20,966 nucleotides of DNA from positions 1 to 20,966 of IMG/VR virus record IMGVR_UViG_3300033571_004201; one strand, 5' to 3'. Below, piece by piece: positions 3,263 to 20,378 of this stretch. The notes beneath the pieces were generated by a model. The model saw only the letters and a program-made list of their open reading frames with translations. It was not told where the DNA came from and searched no databases. Position 1 is the first letter of the stretch; the number at the start of each line of letters is the position of its first letter. This DNA comes from a virus. The position numbers were made by a program, and so were the translations under genes.

Positions 3263-4783
3263 ATGTCAAAAGTGGTGACATTTGTTATACCAAGCAGTGC
3301 TGCTCAAGCATATCAAGCACTTGCTAATAAGTATTCTGCTATTGAACCTCCAACATGGGCACTGTTACTTGCTAACGCTGTTCGTGTTGAAGGTTATGAT
3401 CCTTGTATTCTAGACTTCGATGCTGACCCAGCACGTGACTATGAACACGCAGCACATAAGATTGCTGATACAGGCACAGATATAGCAGTCTTTGTTCTTT
3501 ACGGACAAAATCCAAACTCAGGCACCACAATGATGATTGGTGCTTCCAAGTTAGCAACTCAACTCAAACTTTCACACCCATCAATCAAGATCGTATTCAT
3601 TGGCTCACATGCTTCAGCATTGCCATATGATGTAATTGGTTTACCATATGTTGATTTTGTATTCATCAATGAAGGTGTATATGGTTTACTTGATTTACTA
3701 CAAACAAACTATGTTGACGAATTAGATAAGGTTCGGGGTTTGGTGTATAAGAAGCATGGGCTACCTGCTGTTGGTGCTCCTGGTGAAATTGTACAAACCA
3801 AAGATATGGATCGTGTGATGCCTGGTTATGCTTGGGACTTGTTACCAAAAGATAGAAAACTATTAGACAAATATCGTGCTCACTATTGGCACAACTATTT
3901 TAAAGATGATGGTCGTACACCGTTTGCTGCTATCTCAACATCATTAGGTTGTTCATTTGGATGTAACTTCTGTATGATTAACATTGTTAACCGTACATCA
4001 TATGAACAAGGTGTTGTTTCATCAGACTCACGTGGTATGAGATTCTGGTCACCCGAATTAATGCTCAAAGAGTTTGAGTATCTGTATGAGAATGGTGTTC
4101 GTACCGTTCGACTGACAGATGAAATGTTCTTCCTGAATAAGAAATATTACATACCAATTCTAGAAGGTATCAAGCAACGTGGTATGGACTTTAACTTCTG
4201 GGCATACGCACGTGTCGATTCTGTTCGCAAAGATCAACTTGAACTATTCAAAGAAGCTGGTGTGAATTGGTTGTGCCTTGGTATTGAAGCAGCAAATCAA
4301 AATGTTCGTCTTGAAATTGAAAAGGGTAAGTTTGAAGATGTAGATATTCGTCGTGTTGTTTCAGACATCAAATCAGCCGACATTAACATTCTTGGTAACT
4401 ACATGTTTGGTTTTCCAGAAGATACTATGGAAACAATGCAAGAGACACTTGATTTGTCACTTGAACTGAATACAGAACATGCTAACTTCTATGCTGCTAT
4501 GGCATTGCCAGGTAGCCCATTGTATATGTACGCTAAAAATAGTGGTTGGGATTTACCACAATCATTTGAAGAGTTTGCTTTTTTATCATATGATTGTAAA
4601 CCATTGCGTACCAAAACACTGGAAGGTGCTGAAGTGTTGAAGTTCCGTGATGAAGCATGGCACAAATACTTTTCACATGAACCATTTTTAAATCTTGTCG
4701 AAACAAAATTTGGTGAAGATTCAAGAAAGAATATTGAAAAGATGTCAAAGATTAAATTAAAGCGTAAAATACTTGGAGATTGA
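3263..4783 (+). CDS. B12-binding-type radical SAM protein
   Basis: A 506-residue radical S-adenosylmethionine enzyme with an N-terminal Rossmann-like region of the cobalamin-binding kind (residues about 1-170: PPTWALLLANAVRVEGYD, then IKIVFIGSHASALP, then FVFINEGVYGLLDLL) and a central TIM-barrel with the iron-sulfur motif CSFGCNFC (C230, C234, C237). Downstream are typical barrel landmarks RLTDEMFF, FWAYARVDSV, LCLGIEAANQNV and NYMFGFPEDTMETM. Family members catalyse methylations, ring rearrangements and other radical reactions on varied substrates; the product here cannot be inferred. The N-terminal region shows no DxHxxG cobalamin-ligand motif, so cobalamin may bind base-off without a His ligand or not at all. 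AAGGA nine bases upstream supports the start. It is the first gene of the sugar cassette and ends four bases before the next start, suggesting it works on the same molecule. Confidence 0.88.
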   Translation: MSKVVTFVIPSSAAQAYQALANKYSAIEPPTWALLLANAVRVEGYDPCILDFDADPARDYEHAAHKIADTGTDIAVFVLYGQNPNSGTTMMIGASKLATQLKLSHPSIKIVFIGSHASALPYDVIGLPYVDFVFINEGVYGLLDLLQTNYVDELDKVRGLVYKKHGLPAVGAPGEIVQTKDMDRVMPGYAWDLLPKDRKLLDKYRAHYWHNYFKDDGRTPFAAISTSLGCSFGCNFCMINIVNRTSYEQGVVSSDSRGMRFWSPELMLKEFEYLYENGVRTVRLTDEMFFLNKKYYIPILEGIKQRGMDFNFWAYARVDSVRKDQLELFKEAGVNWLCLGIEAANQNVRLEIEKGKFEDVDIRRVVSDIKSADINILGNYMFGFPEDTMETMQETLDLSLELNTEHANFYAAMALPGSPLYMYAKNSGWDLPQSFEEFAFLSYDCKPLRTKTLEGAEVLKFRDEAWHKYFSHEPFLNLVETKFGEDSRKNIEKMSKIKLKRKILGD

Positions 4784-4785
4784 TT

Positions 4786-5556
4786 ATGGATTTGCAAAGA
4801 CAAGCAAACTTATATCGTAAAGAATTATTTGAGAAGTTTGTAGAAGTTAGGCAAGGGCATCCTGGTTCCACATTCTCAATGCTTGAGATAGTAACCACAC
4901 TTTATCATGGTGGTTATGTTGGCTTTGAAGATAAAGTTATTATTAGTAAAGGACATGCCACTGTTGCATTGTATCCGATTCTAAAAAACTTAAACATTAT
5001 TCCACATGAAGATTGGGATAATTGGGGTAAAGGTAAACCAACAAGTTTACGTGTGTTTGGTAACATTTCTATTCCAGGCATTGACATGACTTCTGGTTCA
5101 CTTGGGCATGGAGTTGGTGTTGGTGCTGGTATGGCTATTGCTAATCCACGTAATCATGTTTATGTTGTCATCTCAGAAGGTGAACTCTATGAAGGTTCAA
5201 CATGGGAAGCACTGTTGTTCGTTGCTCATCGTCAAATACCAAACATGACTATCTTTATTGACGTAAACAATCTTATCATTCTTGGTAAGACAGATGATTG
5301 TTTGAAACTCAATTCAATTCGACACAAGTTATCTGGCTTTGATTTTGATTTGTATACTGTTGACGGTCACAATACAAACTCAATTTCAGCAGCACTAGAT
5401 GCTCAGTCAGTACAACCAAAAATTATTATTGCTAACACAGTGAAAGGTAAAGGCTTCAGCTTGATGGAGAACAAACCTGAGTGGCACTATATGCAAGCTA
5501 TTACACCAGAACAAATTGAACAATGCCGCAAGGAGATTAATGATGTTACAGCGTGA
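4786..5556 (+). CDS. Transketolase-like N-terminal (TPP-binding) subunit
   Basis: A 256-residue stand-alone version of the diphosphate-binding domain of transketolase, which with thiamine diphosphate moves a two-carbon ketol unit between sugars. Landmarks are GHPGS with H25, ISKGHATVALYP, and SGSLGHGVGVGAGMA. The metal-binding GDG...N motif is altered: residues 130-133 are SEGE where GDGE is usual, and the partner Asn is at N161, the same 30-residue distance as Asp155-Asn185 in the E. coli enzyme. The Asp-to-Glu change keeps an acidic ligand, so activity is plausible. The ATG at 4786 is chosen because GGAG lies seven bases upstream. It overlaps the next gene, which encodes the complementary subunit; together they match the split transketolases often found in sugar-biosynthesis operons. 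Confidence 0.9.
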   Translation: MDLQRQANLYRKELFEKFVEVRQGHPGSTFSMLEIVTTLYHGGYVGFEDKVIISKGHATVALYPILKNLNIIPHEDWDNWGKGKPTSLRVFGNISIPGIDMTSGSLGHGVGVGAGMAIANPRNHVYVVISEGELYEGSTWEALLFVAHRQIPNMTIFIDVNNLIILGKTDDCLKLNSIRHKLSGFDFDLYTVDGHNTNSISAALDAQSVQPKIIIANTVKGKGFSLMENKPEWHYMQAITPEQIEQCRKEINDVTA

Positions 5557-6463
5557 TGCTTTTATTGAAGAGATTAAAAAACGATTAGAAACAGATAAAG
5601 ATATTTACTTTCTATCAGCAGACTTTGGTGCAGCAGCACTAGACTCTCTGCGTGAAATATATCCAGATAACTTTATTCATTGTGGTATTTCAGAGCAAGC
5701 AATGATTGATATTGCTACCGGTTTAGCATTACAGGGTAAGAAAGTATTCTGTTATGCTATGGCACCATTCATTTCTCTTCGTGCTATTGAACAAATTAAA
5801 TGTGGTCCGTCGATGATGAATCTACCAATTGCTATATTATCTGTTGGTATTGGTATTGGATATGCTGATGCTGGTCCTACACATTATATTACTGAGGACT
5901 TTGCTTGTATGCGTTCAATTCTAAACCTGAATATGTATACATTAGCAGACGCAAGTTCAGCAAAAAGATTAGCTAATAAACTGCTGGACAATCCAGAGTT
6001 GTGTTACATACGTTTTGATCGACACGATCAACCAGAGTTACCAGTAACTAATTTCAAAACAGATTTGACATATAGATTAATTGGTGATATGATAACAACT
6101 GATAAAGTTTTGTTAATTGGTTCTGGTAAGATGTCGCATATTATCAATGAGGTGTGTGAACGTAATAAGCTCACATACAAAGTCGTTGGTGTAGATTTAA
6201 TTCGTGCTAAACCATTTCCTAATACATTAACAATTCTGTTAGAAGCAGCAAAAGGTGCCATAGTTATTGATGAACAGACACCATCTGGTTCACTTGGTGC
6301 TGCTGTAATGGAAGCTATGTCTGAAAAGAATATACTAAAGAAAGTAAAAGTAATTACACTACCAGAAGAATATTTGTTTGAGAATGGTGGTCGTGAGTAT
6401 CTGCTAAAGAAGCATGGTCTAAGTGCAGATAATATTGAAAAAGTATTGAATGATAATTTCTAA
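5543..6463 (+). CDS. Transketolase-like C-terminal subunit
   Basis: A 306-residue protein containing the pyrimidine-binding domain and C-terminal domain of transketolase/DXS-type enzymes. The catalytic glutamate that activates thiamine diphosphate is E51 in HCGISEQAM, followed by the usual IATGLALQGKKVFCYAM and, later, YIRFDRHDQPELP and a C-terminal Rossmann-like domain with VLLIGSGKM and IVIDEQTPSGSLG. With the preceding gene it would build a complete heterodimeric active site. The start is set at 5543, seven bases after a strong AAGGAG; the adjacent ATG at 5540 is an alternative with four-base spacing. The 14-base overlap with the upstream gene implies coupled translation, fitting two subunits needed in equal amounts. 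Confidence 0.9.
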   Translation: MLQRDAFIEEIKKRLETDKDIYFLSADFGAAALDSLREIYPDNFIHCGISEQAMIDIATGLALQGKKVFCYAMAPFISLRAIEQIKCGPSMMNLPIAILSVGIGIGYADAGPTHYITEDFACMRSILNLNMYTLADASSAKRLANKLLDNPELCYIRFDRHDQPELPVTNFKTDLTYRLIGDMITTDKVLLIGSGKMSHIINEVCERNKLTYKVVGVDLIRAKPFPNTLTILLEAAKGAIVIDEQTPSGSLGAAVMEAMSEKNILKKVKVITLPEEYLFENGGREYLLKKHGLSADNIEKVLNDNF

Positions 6464-7433
6464 AACGCCGTATCGTCTGTCATTGTTTGGGGGAGGCACA
6501 GATTATCCAGCATGGTATGAAAAGAATCCATCAAAGGTAATCTCTGCTTCTATGGCATATTATTGCTATATTAGTTTGAAAAAGTTGCCTCCATATTTTG
6601 ATTATGTGAATAGAGTTATTTACTCTAAGATAGAAAGTGTACCAGACATATCACAGATTGAACATCCTTCTGTAAGAGAGTGTTTAAAATACTATGGTAT
6701 ACCTAATGGCATTTCTATTAGTCATGATGGTGATCTACCTGCTAGGTCTGGCATTGGATCATCTTCTTCATTTACTGTTGGATTGATTAACGCTATCACA
6801 ACATATCTTGGTGAGTCATACAGCTCATATGATTTAGCTAATGATGCTATTCATATTGAACAGAATCTTATTGGTGAATCTGTTGGTGTACAAGATCAAA
6901 TTATGGCAGCGATGGGTGGTGTGCAAGTGATTGAACTATCCAAAGATGGTAAAAAAATTATGCCACTGGCTGCGTCATACAGATATTATGAAGAACTACA
7001 GTCACATATAATGTTAGGATTTTCTGGTATCGATAGACTATCTGATGTTCATGCTAAACAACAAGTTGATAATATTAAGTTTGGTAAATCTGAAAAGTAT
7101 TTAAAAGCAATAACTGATATAACCAATGAAGCATATGAAATGATGCTCAATAAAGCATCGATGAAAGAACTTGGTAAGTTACTTGATAGACAGTGGACAT
7201 ACAAACGTCAATTAACAGATGATGTTACAAACGATTACATAGATATAATACATAACAAAGCAATGACTGCTGGTGCTTATGGTGGAAAGTTAATGGGTGC
7301 TGGTGGTGGTGGATTCTTTATGTTTCTTGCACCGCCAGAACAACATGAGAGAATTAAATTAGCAATACCTGAAATCAATGTGTGGGTGCCATTTGAGTTT
7401 GACTTTGAAGGCAGCACAATAATTATGGAGTGA
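6450..7433 (+). CDS. GHMP-family sugar kinase, D-glycero-D-manno-heptose 7-phosphate kinase-like
   Basis: A 327-residue GHMP kinase. The N-terminus ISKTPYRLSLFGGGTDYPAW is the hallmark of the HddA-type subfamily, which phosphorylates the anomeric carbon of D-glycero-D-manno-heptose 7-phosphate on the way to GDP-heptose (fucokinase-like enzymes share the motif). The ATP-binding motif PARSGIGSSSS lies at about residues 97-107, and the C-terminal motif GGKLMGAGGGGFF is intact. It begins 14 bases inside the preceding transketolase subunit gene with no clear ribosome site, so it relies on coupling. The exact substrate is inferred from family; a heptose or other seven-carbon sugar phosphate fits a neighbouring transketolase, which could supply ketoheptoses. 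Confidence 0.87.
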   Translation: MIISKTPYRLSLFGGGTDYPAWYEKNPSKVISASMAYYCYISLKKLPPYFDYVNRVIYSKIESVPDISQIEHPSVRECLKYYGIPNGISISHDGDLPARSGIGSSSSFTVGLINAITTYLGESYSSYDLANDAIHIEQNLIGESVGVQDQIMAAMGGVQVIELSKDGKKIMPLAASYRYYEELQSHIMLGFSGIDRLSDVHAKQQVDNIKFGKSEKYLKAITDITNEAYEMMLNKASMKELGKLLDRQWTYKRQLTDDVTNDYIDIIHNKAMTAGAYGGKLMGAGGGGFFMFLAPPEQHERIKLAIPEINVWVPFEFDFEGSTIIME

Positions 7434-7435
7434 TT

Positions 7436-8608
7436 ATGAAATACCCTTTGATGTCTGATAACGTTACAAGAGAAGATTTAGATTTGGTAATCGAACATCT
7501 AAAAAAAGACAATCCAAAACTTACTAATGGTCCTGAGTGCCGTGCTTTTGAACAAGCATGGAGCAAGTGGTTGGGTGTAAAGTATTCCGTGTTTGTAAAC
7601 TCAGGTGCTTCTGCTAATCTATTGTCAATGACAATGTTGAAGATCAAACATCCAGAAGGTGGTGAAGTTATTGTACCACCTTTCACGTGGGTATCTGATG
7701 TTGCTTCTATTCTTCAATGTGGTTTTACACCAGTGTTTGTTGATATTGATTTAGATACACTTGGTATGAACACCGAAGGTATTCTCAAAGCAGTCACACC
7801 AAAAACACGTGCTGTGTTTCTTACATACGCACAAGGTTTTGATTGCCTTACTGATGAACTTTTACTCAAACTTCGTGCGTTAAACATTCCATTGATTGAA
7901 GATGTATGTGAGTCGCATGGTGCTACACACAATAATCAACTGCTAGGTAGTTTTGGTTGGATGTCTAACTTCTCATTCTACTTTGCTCATCACATGTCCA
8001 CTATTGAAGGTGGTATGGTATGTACGAATGATCCAGAAGTATATCACACAGTTCGTATGCTTCGTTCACATGGTATGGTACGTGAATGTGACTCACCAGA
8101 AATGACTGAACAATACAAAGCAGAAAATCCAGAACTCAATCCAGATTTTATCTTTGCTTACCCAGCATACAATATGCGTAACACAGAAATTGGTGGCATA
8201 CTTGGACAAAATCAGTTGAAATATCTGGATGATAATGTTAAAATACGTAATGAGAATCTATTTTATTTCTTATCTAAATTAGATCAAAAGAAATATAAAG
8301 TAGATTTCAAGTTGGTAGGATGTAGTAACTATGCTTTCAATCTTGTATTACAACCTGAGTATGCTAACCCAGATTTTGTGAAAAGATTGATGGGTAAAAT
8401 GCGTGATAATGAAATCGAGTTTCGTCGTGGCTCTGCTGGTGGTGGTAATCAACTTCGTCAACCATATTTAAAATCGACATATGATGATTACTATCTAGAT
8501 TTTCCTAACACGGAGCACATGCATTTTTATGGCTTCTATATTGGAAATTATCCAACACTAAAGAAATCTGCAATAGATGAAATCGTTGACGTTTTAAATA
8601 GGGTATAA
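7436..8608 (+). CDS. DegT/DnrJ/EryC1 family protein with His replacing the PLP lysine (3-dehydrase-like)
   Basis: A 390-residue member of the sugar aminotransferase/dehydrase family that uses pyridoxal or pyridoxamine phosphate. Landmarks: FVNSGASANLLSM for phosphate binding, VIVPPFTWVSD, LIEDVCESHGA (the Asp contacting the cofactor ring), and SFYFAHHMSTIEGG. In ordinary aminotransferases the sixth residue of that last motif is the lysine forming the Schiff base; here it is H185. The same change defines the C-3 dehydrases RfbH/AscC (E1) and ColD, which remove the C-3 hydroxyl of a 4-keto-6-deoxy nucleotide sugar. A dehydrase rather than an aminotransferase is therefore the better reading. The ATG at 7436 has GGAG five bases upstream. 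The gene sits between the kinase and an SDR gene in the sugar cassette. Confidence 0.88.
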   Translation: MKYPLMSDNVTREDLDLVIEHLKKDNPKLTNGPECRAFEQAWSKWLGVKYSVFVNSGASANLLSMTMLKIKHPEGGEVIVPPFTWVSDVASILQCGFTPVFVDIDLDTLGMNTEGILKAVTPKTRAVFLTYAQGFDCLTDELLLKLRALNIPLIEDVCESHGATHNNQLLGSFGWMSNFSFYFAHHMSTIEGGMVCTNDPEVYHTVRMLRSHGMVRECDSPEMTEQYKAENPELNPDFIFAYPAYNMRNTEIGGILGQNQLKYLDDNVKIRNENLFYFLSKLDQKKYKVDFKLVGCSNYAFNLVLQPEYANPDFVKRLMGKMRDNEIEFRRGSAGGGNQLRQPYLKSTYDDYYLDFPNTEHMHFYGFYIGNYPTLKKSAIDEIVDVLNRV

Positions 8609-8609
8609 C

Positions 8610-9545
8610 ATGGAACAGTGGCGTGTATTAGTAACCGGTGGTGCTGGTTACATCGGAAGCATTTTGGTAGAGTATCTATTACAAATGAACTGTATAGTTA
8701 CAGTGATAGATAACTTCATGTTCAAACAAAATAGTTTGAATCATTTGTGTGAAAATAAAAATTTAAAGATTGTGAATGGTGACATTCGTAATCCAGAACA
8801 CATTGGTCCACTGTTGAGAAATGCCGACATTATTATTCCTCTTGCTGCTTTGGTTGGTGCTCCACTGTGTAATAAAGATGTAGTTGGAGCAGATACAACA
8901 AATAAAGAAGCTGTATTTTGGATGCTTGATCGTATCTCAAAAGAACAACGTATCATTATGCCAACTACCAATTCAGCGTATGGTACAAGCAGCGAAATCT
9001 GTACAGAAGATTCACCACTAAATCCTATCTCCAAATATGCCATTGATAAAGTAGCAGTTGAAGAAGTGTTGATGCAACGTGAGAACTCAATCAGCTATCG
9101 TTTAGCTACAGTGTTTGGTATGTCACCACGTATGCGTACTGACTTGCTCGTAAATGATTTGACTTACCGTGCTGTCAATGATGGTTATGTCGTTATCTTT
9201 GAAGGTCATTTTAAACGAAACTACATTCATGTTCGTGATGTATGTGAAGCATTTTTGCATGCCATCTATCAGTTTGAAGAAATGAAAGGCAACATCTATA
9301 ATGTCGGACTCTCTTCTGCGAACGTTTCAAAACTGGAACTCTGTGAAATTATCAAAGAACATGTACCTAACTTTACGATTGTTGAAGGTGATATCAAGCG
9401 GGATCCCGATCAAAGAAATTATATTGTTTCAAATGAAAAATTAGAAGCAACAGGTTGGATGCCGTATTATAGATTAGATGATGGTATTCAAGAACTCATC
9501 AAAGGTTACACATATCTTAAAAACAATATTCATGGTAATGTATAA
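8610..9545 (+). CDS. NAD-dependent epimerase/dehydratase (extended SDR)
   Basis: A 311-residue extended short-chain dehydrogenase/reductase of the nucleotide-sugar type. The dinucleotide-binding TGGAGYIG is at residues 9-16, the conserved NGDIRNPE follows the fourth strand, the catalytic Ser lies in TTNSAYG, and the Tyr/Lys pair is Y143 and K147 in YAIDK. Later RNYIHVRDVCEAF and NIYNVGLSS are typical of the substrate-binding part. Members are 4-epimerases, 4,6-dehydratases or 4-reductases; the sequence alone does not decide which, although the RNYIHVRDV segment is common in UDP-glucose 4-epimerase-like proteins. It follows the dehydrase-like gene by one base and its TAA shares a base with the ATG of gp55, so the sugar cassette runs directly into a core phage gene. 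Confidence 0.9.
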   Translation: MEQWRVLVTGGAGYIGSILVEYLLQMNCIVTVIDNFMFKQNSLNHLCENKNLKIVNGDIRNPEHIGPLLRNADIIIPLAALVGAPLCNKDVVGADTTNKEAVFWMLDRISKEQRIIMPTTNSAYGTSSEICTEDSPLNPISKYAIDKVAVEEVLMQRENSISYRLATVFGMSPRMRTDLLVNDLTYRAVNDGYVVIFEGHFKRNYIHVRDVCEAFLHAIYQFEEMKGNIYNVGLSSANVSKLELCEIIKEHVPNFTIVEGDIKRDPDQRNYIVSNEKLEATGWMPYYRLDDGIQELIKGYTYLKNNIHGNV

Positions 9546-10085: not shown

Positions 10086-11153
10086 ATGAAGATATGCATA
10101 CTTGGTGATACACATTTTGGAATGCGTGGTGATTCTCTTGATTTTCATAAATACATTGAGAAGTTCTACGAGAACACGTTCTTTCCTTACCTAAAACAAA
10201 ATGGTATTACAACCGTTATACAACTTGGTGATCTATTCGACCGCCGTAAGTTTATTAACTTCAATTCACTCTATTTGTGCCGTAAATATTTCTTTGATAA
10301 ACTTAGAGAGAACAACATTGCGTTCATTACGCTTCTTGGCAACCACGATGTCGCATTCAAAAACACCCTAGAAGTAAACTCTTCACAACTGCTACTGAAT
10401 GAATATGATAATATTACTATATACGATTCTTTTGGTACAGTTAATCTTGACGGTATTGATATTGACATTATACCTTGGCTCTGCGATGACAACCAAGATG
10501 AAATCTTTGCTCAAATAAAATCTACTAAATCACAAATCTGCTTGGGGCATTTTGAACTTGATGGTTTTGAAATGGAACGTGGCGTTATTCATCATGGTGG
10601 GCTTGACAGAAACGTTCTAATGAAGTATGATGTAGTATTGTCTGGTCACTTTCATCACAAATCATCAGACGGTACTATTACCTATGTTGGTACACCATAT
10701 GAAATGACATGGTCCGATTACAATGATCCACGTGGCTTTCATATCTTTGATACGGCTACACGTGAAGCAGAGTTTGTACAGAATCCATATCGTATGTTTT
10801 ACAAATTAAATTATGATGATGAGCTTGAACATTTTTCAGAGCACTATCGTACATTTGATTACTCTGTATATGAAGGATCTTATGTCAAAGTGGTTGTGAA
10901 AAACAAATTAAATCCATTTCTATTTGATGTCGTGATAGACAATCTCTACAAAGCAAATGCAGCAGATATATCTGTGGTAGAAGATTTTACTGAGATAATT
11001 GCTAATGATGACGAGTTGATTGATCAAGCAGAAGATACTATGACAATTCTATCCAAGTACATAGACAATCTATCTTTGAATGTAGAGAATGATAAACTGA
11101 AGAGCTTAATGCGTGAACTGTACGTAGAAGCCTTGAACACTGAGATTGAATGA
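10086..11153 (+). CDS. 47: gp47-like recombination nuclease subunit (SbcD/Mre11 family)
   Basis: A 355-residue metallophosphoesterase, the nuclease partner in the T4 gp46/gp47 complex that resects double-strand ends to start recombination-dependent replication. The metal ligands are all visible: GDTHFGMRG with D8 and H10, QLGDLFD with D49, the LLGNHD motif at residues 84-88, GHFE, and SGHFHH near residue 195. The length and motif order agree with the SbcD/Mre11 family. It begins one base after the gp55 stop and its own stop overlaps the gp46 start in ATGA, consistent with coupled synthesis of the two subunits. Confidence 0.93.
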   Translation: MKICILGDTHFGMRGDSLDFHKYIEKFYENTFFPYLKQNGITTVIQLGDLFDRRKFINFNSLYLCRKYFFDKLRENNIAFITLLGNHDVAFKNTLEVNSSQLLLNEYDNITIYDSFGTVNLDGIDIDIIPWLCDDNQDEIFAQIKSTKSQICLGHFELDGFEMERGVIHHGGLDRNVLMKYDVVLSGHFHHKSSDGTITYVGTPYEMTWSDYNDPRGFHIFDTATREAEFVQNPYRMFYKLNYDDELEHFSEHYRTFDYSVYEGSYVKVVVKNKLNPFLFDVVIDNLYKANAADISVVEDFTEIIANDDELIDQAEDTMTILSKYIDNLSLNVENDKLKSLMRELYVEALNTEIE

Positions 11154-12856
11154 TAGTATTTAAAACTTTGCGATGGAAGAATCTTCTATCTACTGGTAAC
11201 TATTTCACCGAAATAAAATTAAACGAGAACGCCAACACTCTGATTGTTGGTACAAATGGCTCAGGTAAATCAACAATGCTTGACGCTCTTTGTTTTTCTT
11301 TGTTTGGTAAACCATTTCGTAACATCAACAAGCCTAATCTCCTAAATAGTATTAATGGTAAAGATTGTGTTGTTGAAGTTGAGTTTACTATTGGTAATCG
11401 TGAGTACAAGATTGTTCGTGGTATCAAACCAAACATCTTTCAGATTTACCAAGATTCAGTTTTGCTGAATCAAGATGCGGCTGCTAGAGACTATCAAGAC
11501 TACCTAGAGAAGTTTGTTCTCAAACTAAACTATAAGTCTTTTACGCAGATCGTTATTCTTGGTTCAGCATCCTTTACTCCGTTCATGCAGTTATCTGCTG
11601 CTGATCGTAGAACTATTATTGAAGATTTATTAGACATTCAAATCTTTTCTACCATGAATGGTTTGGTGAAAGATAGAATCGCAAACAATAAAGATTTGTT
11701 ATTAGAAAAGAAAAGTGAAATTGAACTTGCGAAACAAAGATACGATCTTAAAAAAGAACACCACGAAAAGATTAGTCAAAACAATGACGAAAAGGTAAAA
11801 GAGTATGAGAAAGAGATACAAAGTTGCAGAGAAACCATACGCACCTTATGTGGAGAGGTTGACGACTTGGAAGGAAGGAAACAAAGTCTCACTGAGATAT
11901 GCTCAAAGATTCCTGAAACTGAAAAGAAGATTGCTTCGTTTAAAAAAGTTGAATCGCAAATTGAAAGCAAGATATCCAAAGTGGGAACAGATAGAGAGTT
12001 CTATGAACACAATACTGATTGCCCAACCTGTAGGCAAGCCATTACCTTGGAGTCTAAAGAACGGCACATGGGCGAACTACTATCGAAACAACAGGAACTT
12101 TCTATTGGGTTAGAAGAATTACAAACAAAAATATCAACGCATGAAGGTCTGCTGAGAGTGATGCGTGGTGAAGAAAAAGAATTATCTAATGTTCGTATTC
12201 AATTAGCCACAACAAACACAAGCATCAACTCTTTGAACACTACGATTTCTAGACTTGAAAAAGAAATTAGAGAATTACAGGAAGATAATTCTAATATAGA
12301 TCAAACCGAACTGAATACATTAGAAACACATATCAAACAAGCACAAGCTGAATTGAAACAGTTGATCGATGACCGTGCTTATTATGATGCTGCTTCGTTG
12401 TTGCTCAAAGACACTGGCATCAAAACCAATATCGTCAAACAATATTTACCAGTAATCAATAAGTTGGTGAACAAATACTTGACAAGCTTAGACTTCTTTG
12501 TTAATTTTAATCTTGATGAAGCATTCAAAGAAACAATCAAGTCCCGTCACCGTGATGACTTCAGTTACCATAACTTTTCTGAAGGTGAAAAGCAACGTAT
12601 TGACATGGCACTGATGCTCACATGGAGAGCAGTGGCTAAGTTGAAGAACTCTACCAATACCAATCTACTGATACTAGATGAAGTGTTTGATTCAAGCCTA
12701 GATAATAATGGTACAGAAGAACTAATGAAGATATTACATTCATTAGAAGATGCTAATCTGTTTGTTATCAGCCATAAAGGTGATATACTTCAAGATAAAT
12801 TTGCGAACACAATTAAATTTGATAAGGTAAAAAACTTTTCGAGGATAGTGAAATGA
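11150..12856 (+). CDS. 46: gp46-like recombination nuclease ATPase (SbcC/Rad50 family)
   Basis: A 568-residue SMC-like ATPase that pairs with gp47. Walker A GTNGSGKST is at residues 34-42, followed by a long charged coiled coil (roughly 175-425) interrupted near its middle by a zinc hook, DCPTCRQA, with C291 and C294. The C-terminal ATPase half has the ABC signature FSEGEKQRID at about 476-485, Walker B LLILDEVFD with D510 and E511, and the switch His in VISHKGD. Organisation and length are as in T4 gp46 (560 residues). Start and stop both overlap neighbours by ATGA, placing it in the middle of a coupled string running from gp47 into the deformylase gene. Confidence 0.94.
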   Translation: MIVFKTLRWKNLLSTGNYFTEIKLNENANTLIVGTNGSGKSTMLDALCFSLFGKPFRNINKPNLLNSINGKDCVVEVEFTIGNREYKIVRGIKPNIFQIYQDSVLLNQDAAARDYQDYLEKFVLKLNYKSFTQIVILGSASFTPFMQLSAADRRTIIEDLLDIQIFSTMNGLVKDRIANNKDLLLEKKSEIELAKQRYDLKKEHHEKISQNNDEKVKEYEKEIQSCRETIRTLCGEVDDLEGRKQSLTEICSKIPETEKKIASFKKVESQIESKISKVGTDREFYEHNTDCPTCRQAITLESKERHMGELLSKQQELSIGLEELQTKISTHEGLLRVMRGEEKELSNVRIQLATTNTSINSLNTTISRLEKEIRELQEDNSNIDQTELNTLETHIKQAQAELKQLIDDRAYYDAASLLLKDTGIKTNIVKQYLPVINKLVNKYLTSLDFFVNFNLDEAFKETIKSRHRDDFSYHNFSEGEKQRIDMALMLTWRAVAKLKNSTNTNLLILDEVFDSSLDNNGTEELMKILHSLEDANLFVISHKGDILQDKFANTIKFDKVKNFSRIVK

Positions 12857-18745: not shown

Positions 18746-19927
18746 ATGACAAGTCGTTCTGAAAAGCGCCAGTTGTTTCTTGATGCTCTTTCCGCAACTG
18801 GTAAAACAGAAATTTCATTAAATGAAATTCGTGATCTTTCTGACAACATTGGTATTCCACTGCCTCAGTGGTTTGTCAAAGATGAAACTAACAAAGTAAA
18901 GCGTGGTGTCTACCGCATCCCGTCTACCCCTTCAGCACCCTCTATACAGCTTGCAGCGCAAGTTATTCCAATGGCTAAACGTGAAGATACTCAAGGTAAT
19001 CGCATTGCTAATGTGACAACTGATCTTGAGATTGAAAATCTGATACCTGCTCAATATAGCAACTATGTTCCTTTTGGTAACTTTGAGGATGTGTTGTCAA
19101 TTGTGAAATCTAACACGTTCTTCCCTGTGTTCATTACTGGTCAATCTGGTAATGGTAAAACAATGTCTATCGAGCAAGCTTGTGCTAAAGCAAAACGCAA
19201 GTTCGTTTGCGTATCAATGACACCCGATACTGATGAAGGTGACTTGCTTGGTAACTATGTGTTGATCAATGGTCAAATGGAATGGCGTGACGGTCCTGTG
19301 ACTGTCGCAGCCCGTCAAGGTGCTGTTCTGTGTATCGATGAAATTGATTATGGTGCTCAGAATCTTTCTTGCTTACAGCGTGTTCTCGAAGGCAAACCGT
19401 TCTTGCTGAAGAAAAAAAATGAACTGGTAACACCTGCGCCTGGTTTCACTGTGTTTGCTACTGCTAACACAAAAGGTAAAGGTTCTGAAGATGGTCGTTA
19501 CATGTTCACGAACGTTCTGAATGAAGCATTCCTTGAACGTTTCCCTAACACGATGGAACAGGATTGGCCACCATCACGAATTGAAGAAAAAATCATCAAC
19601 AAAGAACTTGACTTTGTTGGTCGTGCTGATGCTGCTTTTGCCAAGAACCTTGTGACTTGGGCAAACGCAATCCGTACCACGTTTGCTGATGGTGGCTGCG
19701 ATGAAGTTATTTCTACCCGTCGTTTGGTACACATTGTCAAAACGTTTGGTATCTATGGCGACAAACGTAAAGCGATTGAGTATTGCTTGAATCGTTTTGA
19801 TGCTGATACCAAAGCTACCTTCTACGATCTGTATACTAAAGTTGATGCTGGTATCGATCCTGTTGCGGCAGCTGAACCTGAACCAGTAAAATCTGCTGCT
19901 GAATCCACAGAAGAAGTGCCATTCTAA
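18746..19927 (+). CDS. MoxR/CobS-like AAA+ ATPase
   Basis: A 393-residue AAA+ ATPase. An N-terminal domain of about 95 residues precedes the ATPase core: Walker A GQSGNGKT at residues 132-139, MTPDTDEGDLLGNY (the insert typical of MoxR/CobS proteins), Walker B LCIDEID with D198 and E199, sensor-1-like ATANTKGKG, and the arginine-finger region NEAFLERFPNT. CobS works with CobT in cobalt chelation, and MoxR proteins work with VWA partners as chaperones; a VWA/CobT-like gene lies just upstream. No CobN is in the window, so a chaperone or remodelling role is as likely as cobalamin synthesis. The C-terminal 20 residues are Ala/Glu-rich, probably disordered, and end in EEVPF. Its own consensus promoter and a terminator frame it as a single-gene unit. 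Confidence 0.9.
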   Translation: MTSRSEKRQLFLDALSATGKTEISLNEIRDLSDNIGIPLPQWFVKDETNKVKRGVYRIPSTPSAPSIQLAAQVIPMAKREDTQGNRIANVTTDLEIENLIPAQYSNYVPFGNFEDVLSIVKSNTFFPVFITGQSGNGKTMSIEQACAKAKRKFVCVSMTPDTDEGDLLGNYVLINGQMEWRDGPVTVAARQGAVLCIDEIDYGAQNLSCLQRVLEGKPFLLKKKNELVTPAPGFTVFATANTKGKGSEDGRYMFTNVLNEAFLERFPNTMEQDWPPSRIEEKIINKELDFVGRADAAFAKNLVTWANAIRTTFADGGCDEVISTRRLVHIVKTFGIYGDKRKAIEYCLNRFDADTKATFYDLYTKVDAGIDPVAAAEPEPVKSAAESTEEVPF

Positions 19928-19940
19928 GTCATTCTTAGCC

Positions 19941-19971
19941 AGAGAAAGTGTTGACGCACTTTCTCTTTTTT
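19941..19971 (+). terminator. Intrinsic terminator after the AAA+ gene, with a -35 box as its loop
   Basis: AGAGAAAGTG (19941-19950) pairs perfectly with CACTTTCTCT (19957-19966) over 10 bp around a six-base loop TTGACG, and T19966 opens a run of six Ts ending at 19971. It begins 14 bases after the AAA+ stop codon. The loop is exactly the -35 hexamer of the following promoter, and the T tract lies in that promoter's spacer. Confidence 0.9.
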
Positions 19972-19979
19972 GTTATAAT
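19951..19979 (+). promoter_or_regulatory. Sigma70 promoter for the winged-helix gene, embedded in the terminator
   Basis: TTGACG (19951-19956), exactly 17 bases, TATAAT (19974-19979). One mismatch from consensus. Transcription would start near 19985-19987, only a few bases before the pseudoknot-forming leader. TAGTTC follows the -10, as at the promoter before the AAA+ gene. Confidence 0.87.
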
Positions 19980-19988
19980 TTAGTTCAA

Positions 19989-20029
19989 AGCAGAGATTAG
20001 TCGCCTCTGCTCTTCTTTTTGTGCGACTA
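19989..20029 (+). promoter_or_regulatory. H-type RNA pseudoknot in the leader of the winged-helix gene
   Basis: Stem 1 is AGCAGAG (19989-19995) with CTCTGCT (20005-20011). The loop of stem 1 contains TAGTCGC (19998-20004), which pairs perfectly with GCGACTA (20023-20029) as stem 2. Loop 1 is two bases (AT), there is no base between the stems, and loop 3 is eleven pyrimidine-rich bases, which suits two coaxially stacked 7-bp stems. Stem 1 alone is followed by TCTTCTTTTT and stem 2 by six Ts (20030-20035), so either could also act as a terminator. The ribosome site GGAG follows at 20038-20041. No known riboswitch class is recognised. The structure is seen in the sequence; a regulatory role is inferred. 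Confidence 0.65.
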
Positions 20030-20048
20030 TTTTTTATGGAGTATTTTG

Positions 20049-20318
20049 ATGAGTAAGTCCGTTAAAGAAAAAATCCTTGCGTATCTTTCCAAGGATTCTG
20101 GCTATAACACACTAACTGTTGCACAGATCCGTGCTCGTTTTGGTATCACAAATGTATCTGCTCGTATTGAAGAACTGCGTTCTGAAGGTTACTGCATTTA
20201 CACAAACAAGAAAACGCTTGAAGATGGTCGTCGCATCACCTACTACAAGCTTGGTAAACCAACTAAAGCAATGGTTGCTGCTGCTCATGCTACATTGGGT
20301 GGTGAGGCGTTTGCCTAA
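20049..20318 (+). CDS. Small winged-helix DNA-binding protein
   Basis: An 89-residue basic protein with a winged helix-turn-helix layout: helix 1 VKEKILAYLSKD, helix 2 TVAQIRARFG, recognition helix NVSARIEELRSEGY, then two wing strands CIYTNKKTLEDGRRITYYKLG and a short Ala-rich C-terminal helix. This arrangement fits small phage repressors or accessory transcription factors. GGAG seven bases before the ATG at 20049 fixes the start; an in-frame ATG at 20019 lies inside the leader structure and is not used. It is transcribed alone from an embedded promoter behind the AAA+ gene and is followed by a terminator, so it could regulate this promoter set, but no operator has been shown. Confidence 0.85.
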   Translation: MSKSVKEKILAYLSKDSGYNTLTVAQIRARFGITNVSARIEELRSEGYCIYTNKKTLEDGRRITYYKLGKPTKAMVAAAHATLGGEAFA

Positions 20319-20337
20319 TAAAGTTTGAAAACGGGTG

Positions 20338-20378
20338 GAGTAGGAGCATATATACATATGTGTTCCTACTCTTTTTTT
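20338..20378 (+). terminator. Intrinsic terminator after the winged-helix gene
   Basis: GAGTAGGA (20338-20345) pairs with TCCTACTC (20364-20371), and the inner bases GCATATA and TATGTGT (20346-20352, 20357-20363) extend this to a 15-bp stem with two G-U pairs and a TACA loop. Seven Ts follow (20372-20378). It lies 20 bases after the stop codon and ends 12 bases before the next ATG. Confidence 0.9.

Follow-up and report, generated by a model that had tools for sequence, protein, structure and literature searches.

Computation shows that the leader of a winged-helix mRNA in a T4-like phage forms an H-type pseudoknot, which occupies the leader from about +1/+5 up to a point 8-10 nucleotides before the Shine-Dalgarno (SD) sequence. 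Comparison of related leaders indicates that this pseudoknot is neither a DNA operator nor a chance fold but an RNA structure maintained by strong selection, and that a large group of T4-like phages has long retained it. It probably serves either to protect the front end of the mRNA or to control its translation.

The window analysed here (the whole stretch of 20,966 nucleotides from the IMG/VR virus record IMGVR_UViG_3300033571_004201) is a fragment of a T4-like phage genome, with genes for a UvsW-like helicase, a gp55-type late sigma factor, and CobT-like and CobS-like proteins. Recombination proteins resembling gp47 and gp46 (named from their translations only) are encoded at 10086-12856. 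Translations also reveal a block of metabolic genes between uvsW and the late sigma factor gene (3263-9545), comprising a radical SAM protein, a split transketolase, a GHMP-type kinase, a DegT-type aminotransferase and an NAD-dependent epimerase; this content suggests a surface sugar made by the phage.

Structure of the leader pseudoknot

The pseudoknot (19989-20029, plus strand) sits between cobS (18746-19927) and the winged-helix gene. The 5′ arm of stem 1 (S1; AGCAGAG, 19989-19995) is followed by loop 1 (L1; AT, 19996-19997), the 5′ arm of stem 2 (S2; TAGTCGC, 19998-20004), the 3′ arm of S1 (CTCTGCT, 20005-20011), the U-rich loop 3 (L3; CTTCTTTTTGT, 20012-20022) and the 3′ arm of S2 (GCGACTA, 20023-20029). 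The arms are assigned from the sequence together with covariation, and the loops from the sequence and its relatives. S1 and S2 measure 7 bp each and interlock without an inter-stem base, and 14/14 pairs are Watson-Crick. A sequence-only reading of the window had described just such a pair of perfect interlocked stems, with 2 bases in L1 and 11 in L3, and the letters confirm it.

The same score and geometry recurred in 6 of 400 dinucleotide-shuffled whole windows, and in none of 5000 shuffled leaders. A pseudoknot scan of the window found no other equal-scoring site with such geometry. On the evidence of this one sequence, a chance origin would be conceivable at some place within 21 kb, though hardly at this particular leader.

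Covariation and family geometry

Relatives were collected by scanning IMG/VR with the winged-helix and CobS proteins, which yielded 327 loci with the winged-helix gene and 87 distinct leaders carrying the pseudoknot. Pairs were counted on a MAFFT alignment (A3) with six pairs for S1 and six for S2. Across the 87 leaders, standard pairs occupy 99.4% of cells, compared with 34-50% in slid controls and 81.6% in shuffles. Both sides have changed in 186 cells, spread over 10 of the 12 pairs; these cells count related sequences repeatedly, so that the independent double changes number at least the distinct pair types reached, which is still more than 10. S2 is paired in 100% of cells across the 87 leaders, and its 5′ arm varies widely, including AGTCGC, GGTCTC, GACTGC, GGTTGC, GATCAC, GTATCAC, GAATTGC and TGTGTCGC. 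One-sided changes lead to G.U in S2 without exception (11/11) and in S1 in 17 of 23 departures, a pattern to be expected if the arms pair as RNA, but not if they are DNA palindromes. The overall share of standard pairs, the unbroken pairing of S2, the double changes and the restriction of one-sided S2 changes to G.U together argue for strong selection on the RNA structure. In the sequence-only reading, the winged-helix mRNA was said to begin with an H-type pseudoknot. Stem 2 does show compensatory changes, and this covariation supports that placement, as does the conserved promoter spacing described below.

Since the pseudoknot finder required standard pairs, the leaders that it rejected were read individually. 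Among those belonging to the pseudoknot clade, both stems persist in L213, L222, L218, L220, L212, L216 and L232, separated by one or two inter-stem bases; in L214, S2 is intact and S1 is damaged. There are two exceptions. In L001/L093 (one contig) the leader was lost through deletion of the -10 and nearly the whole pseudoknot, reflecting either a real mutant or an assembly error, and in L229 a short hairpin stands in place of the pseudoknot. A pseudoknot fit in L235 was spurious and was removed.

Within the family, S1 varies from 5 to 9 bp with a purine-rich 5′ arm, S2 from 6 to 8 bp, L1 from 1 to 3 nucleotides (mostly AAA or AAC) and L3 from 9 to 17 nucleotides in true relatives, with 57% U. 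The C-G pair of S2 at the junction is invariant, and the L1 adenine A10 is the only unpaired column that is at least 90% conserved in the alignment of 87 leaders. The distance from S2 to the SD sequence is 6-11 nucleotides in most members and is kept while L3 varies. A promoter can be recognised in 83 leaders, and in 81 of them S1 starts 5-12 nucleotides past the -10, with a mode of 8-9, corresponding to +3/+4. In one clade (L125, L130), S1 starts 14-16 nucleotides past the -10 that was used for the measurement, which would leave these leaders with an unpaired 5′ tail unless transcription begins at another site. Judged from the aligned leaders, it is the topology and both distances that are held, and the sequence is rather free.

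The transcription unit

The elements flanking the pseudoknot also lie on the plus strand. A terminator scan places the intrinsic terminator of the upstream cobS gene at 19941-19966. The -35 of the promoter that follows falls within its hairpin, and the -10 directly adjoins its U-run (19941-19979 for the whole arrangement). The overlap between terminator and -35 is also present in relatives, in which it is kept via compensatory changes (GGGGGAGTGTTGACACACTCCCCC); in another clade the terminator hairpin is placed between the -35 and the -10 (TTGACACAGGCGCAAGTCTGTGTCATAAT). The promoter itself (19951-19979) is strong and of the sigma70 type, TTGACG-17-TATAAT, with a score of 11/12 in the promoter scan, and 83 of 87 relatives have a promoter scoring at least 9/12 in the corresponding position. 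Its spacing predicts +1 at about 19986/19987, so that S1 begins at +3/+4.

On the other side of the pseudoknot, a spacer of eight A and U residues leads into the SD sequence GGAG (20038-20041; 20030-20041 with the spacer). The gene that follows (20049-20318) encodes a basic winged-helix protein of 89 amino acids, which domain and family matches and a structural model assign to Pfam HTH_39 and PHROG 4973. A sequence search of the PDB with this protein returned no significant match, and the AlphaFold model (pLDDT 79.7) matches generic DNA-binding winged helices with weak E-values. A 16-bp intrinsic terminator (20337-20372, terminator scan) ends the monocistronic mRNA, and every relative with the pseudoknot that was inspected likewise has a terminator 3′ of the gene (detected by script in 67 of the 87 and by eye in the others). 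This terminator is long in the window and in relatives; its stem varies, yet its AU-rich apical portion (ATACATATA-like) shows striking conservation. The unit is thus predicted to produce a monocistronic mRNA of about 390 nucleotides, structured at both ends. In some relatives (G001:C1 at about 150543, G002:C1 at about 40174) a gene is inserted between cobS and the winged-helix gene, and its own leader is also long and contains hairpins close to the start (GTGTCACT...AGTGACAC in G002).

Gene specificity and sister clades

Among 898 distinct ribosome binding sites (RBSs) scanned, the pseudoknot was found next to 117 that belong to winged-helix genes, against 8 scattered others. No second pseudoknot family was detected at other leaders, either in two contigs of 172 and 133 kb or at the 898 RBSs, and the other promoters in two large relatives mostly head short (~30-nucleotide) open leaders. 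A pair of geometric matches in the two-contig scan proved to be tmRNA rather than pseudoknot leaders. Two large related phage contigs encode tmRNA (L154:1066-1422 and L166:7160-7534; 139-167 bits with the beta_tmRNA and permuted tmRNA models), which may point to betaproteobacterial hosts or to gene capture.

Searches with Rfam 15 at the gathering score gave no credible match for the pseudoknot in the window, in two stretches of relative contigs or in 20 loci. At E<=10, the 161 bases of the leader gave weak matches at chance level only. No motif of this kind was found in the literature searched, the coverage of which was incomplete. On these two grounds the pseudoknot is probably an undescribed RNA family.

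Winged-helix relatives with 59-71% identity are present in other T4-like phages, where they lack the pseudoknot. Sister loci have a different upstream gene where inspected; CobS is about 46-47% identical and, when found, lies elsewhere in the contig. In 30 of 31 distinct sister leaders, a hairpin of 5-8 bp starts 5-8 nucleotides after the -10, with arms such as CTTGC/GCAAG, CTCGT/GCGAG, TACTCAA/TTGAGTA and CTTTCA/TGAAAG and many further complementary variants. Hairpin-type leaders (L050-L080 and part of L211-L246) have a covarying hairpin at the predicted start and a longer AU-rich linker to the SD sequence, of 14-29 nucleotides. A tree of 40 proteins requires one change between the pseudoknot and hairpin leader types. 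In annotated phages, a DNA search returned no match to the window element, and a protein search recovered only DLP6 and HTVC008M, both without the pseudoknot. The homologue in the cultured Stenotrophomonas phage DLP6 has, by eye, a hairpin directly after a -10-like TATGAT. Hairpins at the same place in the sister leaders and in DLP6 indicate that this gene family maintains structure at the 5′ end, with the pseudoknot as one solution.

Comparison with known systems

In T4 gene 32 mRNA, a leader pseudoknot is the translational operator bound by gp32 (PMC3014915, PMC535899). As in the gene 32 leaders of T4, T2 and RB69, the mRNA of a T4-type phage begins here with an H-type pseudoknot ahead of an AU-rich RBS, and the shape persists while the sequence drifts. 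Unlike gene 32, the gene encodes an HTH_39 winged helix of PHROG 4973 rather than a gp32-type single-stranded DNA-binding protein, and the pseudoknot lies 19-20 nucleotides upstream of the AUG instead of about 67. The unstructured stretch of about 40 nucleotides with UUAA(A) repeats is absent, and 19 U-rich nucleotides separate S2 from the AUG. Moreover, the pseudoknot is conserved here over a much wider sequence range, and its protein partner is putative.

Among bacterial RNAs, the 5′ stem-loop stabilisers of the E. coli ompA/papA type also place a structure at about +1 to +5 before an open RBS; the element here is a pseudoknot rather than a hairpin, belongs to a phage gene and would have a putative stabilising role. 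The small RNA RydC likewise folds into a compact pseudoknot, which is required for RNA stability in vivo (PMC4337610), but RydC is a free small RNA acting with Hfq and not an mRNA leader. ToxI of type III toxin-antitoxin systems, another H-type pseudoknot, lies immediately before a small gene. Unlike ToxI, which occurs in tandem repeats, the present element is single-copy, has no terminator between RNA and gene, precedes a gene without a ToxN-like product and has no Rfam match.

Function of the pseudoknot

We favour, with a probability of roughly 0.45, a role in cis as a 5′-terminal, cap-like structure that shields a compact mRNA. RppH and RNase E depend on single-stranded 5′ ends, which accounts for the stabilisation of mRNAs by 5′ structures (PMC3997798). 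With nearly the first transcribed bases paired and two helices stacked, the winged-helix mRNA would offer no single-stranded 5′ end to these enzymes or their host equivalents. The 3′ edge of the pseudoknot would meet the initiating 30S subunit at its upstream border, leaving the AU-rich RBS open to ribosomes and little exposed to nucleases. The constant SD distance may hold the pseudoknot at this footprint border. As in 5′-terminal mRNA stabilisers, a stable structure lies a few nucleotides from the predicted +1 and the RBS is open; together with the replacement of the pseudoknot by a hairpin in sister clades, this fits 5′-end protection. That different structures can take the same position is also easier to reconcile with a shield than with a specific binding site. 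However, the open 5′ tail predicted for the L125/L130 clade would weigh against a shield. Shielding would also need no more than a plain hairpin, and the strict retention of the pseudoknot and of its SD spacing therefore suggests an extra, more specific role.

Such a role could be that of a translational operator, in which the winged-helix protein, or another phage or host protein, would bind the pseudoknot and block the 30S subunit at the adjacent SD sequence, as gp32 does. We regard this as possible, if short of likely. The pseudoknot lies only about 8-10 nucleotides from the SD sequence at a spacing kept while L3 varies, the gene product is a small, basic nucleic-acid-binding fold, and gene 32 provides a precedent in T4-type phages (PMC3014915, PMC535899). 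An operator would, however, have to tolerate stem and loop sequences that are almost free to vary. Recognition by the encoded protein is further disfavoured by homologues 60-70% identical to that of the window, which have a quite different hairpin leader, and by fold matches to winged helices of the generic DNA-binding kind. It is doubtful, though conceivable, that the leader represents a second independent phage translational operator regulated through a leader pseudoknot, after gene 32, serving a winged-helix regulator in a large uncultured T4-like clade, possibly with the winged-helix protein itself recognising the RNA. Of the roles listed in the sequence-only reading, a 5′ stabiliser and an element under protein control are thus the plausible ones.

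Other explanations fare worse. A ligand riboswitch of the compact pseudoknot type, controlling SD access, would share with preQ1-I and SAM-II a similar size and an H-type pseudoknot adjoining the RBS. It is quite unlikely, since there is no conserved unpaired core apart from the L1 adenine; moreover, the SD sequence lies outside the pseudoknot and is not engaged, and the gene is not one of biosynthesis or transport. The sequence-only reading had recognised no riboswitch family, and neither the window nor 20 relatives matches preQ1-I, SAM-II or any other Rfam riboswitch at the gathering score, preQ1-I and SAM-II being absent even among the chance-level weak matches; the ligand control that it had considered is disfavoured accordingly. 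It had also noted a T-rich run after each stem and proposed an attenuator or a terminated small RNA of about 50 nucleotides. U-rich stretches do follow both S1 and S2 in the window, but they are not conserved: in clades that keep the pseudoknot they are absent after S2 (L134, L135, L147) or thin after S1 (several leaders), which makes attenuation very unlikely. In addition, the terminator scan calls the two flanking terminators and not S1 or S2, S2 as a hairpin would require an 18-nucleotide loop, and an RBS and gene always follow the pseudoknot. The fixed position just past +1 would suit an element acting in cis on the transcribing polymerase, through antitermination of the HK022 put kind or pausing. 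Put elements are constrained in sequence, though, and the pseudoknot is not; a strong conserved terminator directly 3′ of the gene would also be odd in an antiterminated unit, and we give this explanation very little credence. Finally, inverted repeats beside the promoter of a winged-helix gene could be overlapping DNA operators of its product. The G.U wobbles among one-sided changes weigh strongly against this, and interlocked arms of changing sequence are unlike conserved half-sites, so that such operators are almost certainly not the explanation.

Pseudoknotted mRNA leaders proven by comparison are rare in phages. With 87 distinct sequences, this compact, gene-specific RNA family constitutes a natural series for the effects of 5′ pseudoknots on RNA decay and ribosome loading.
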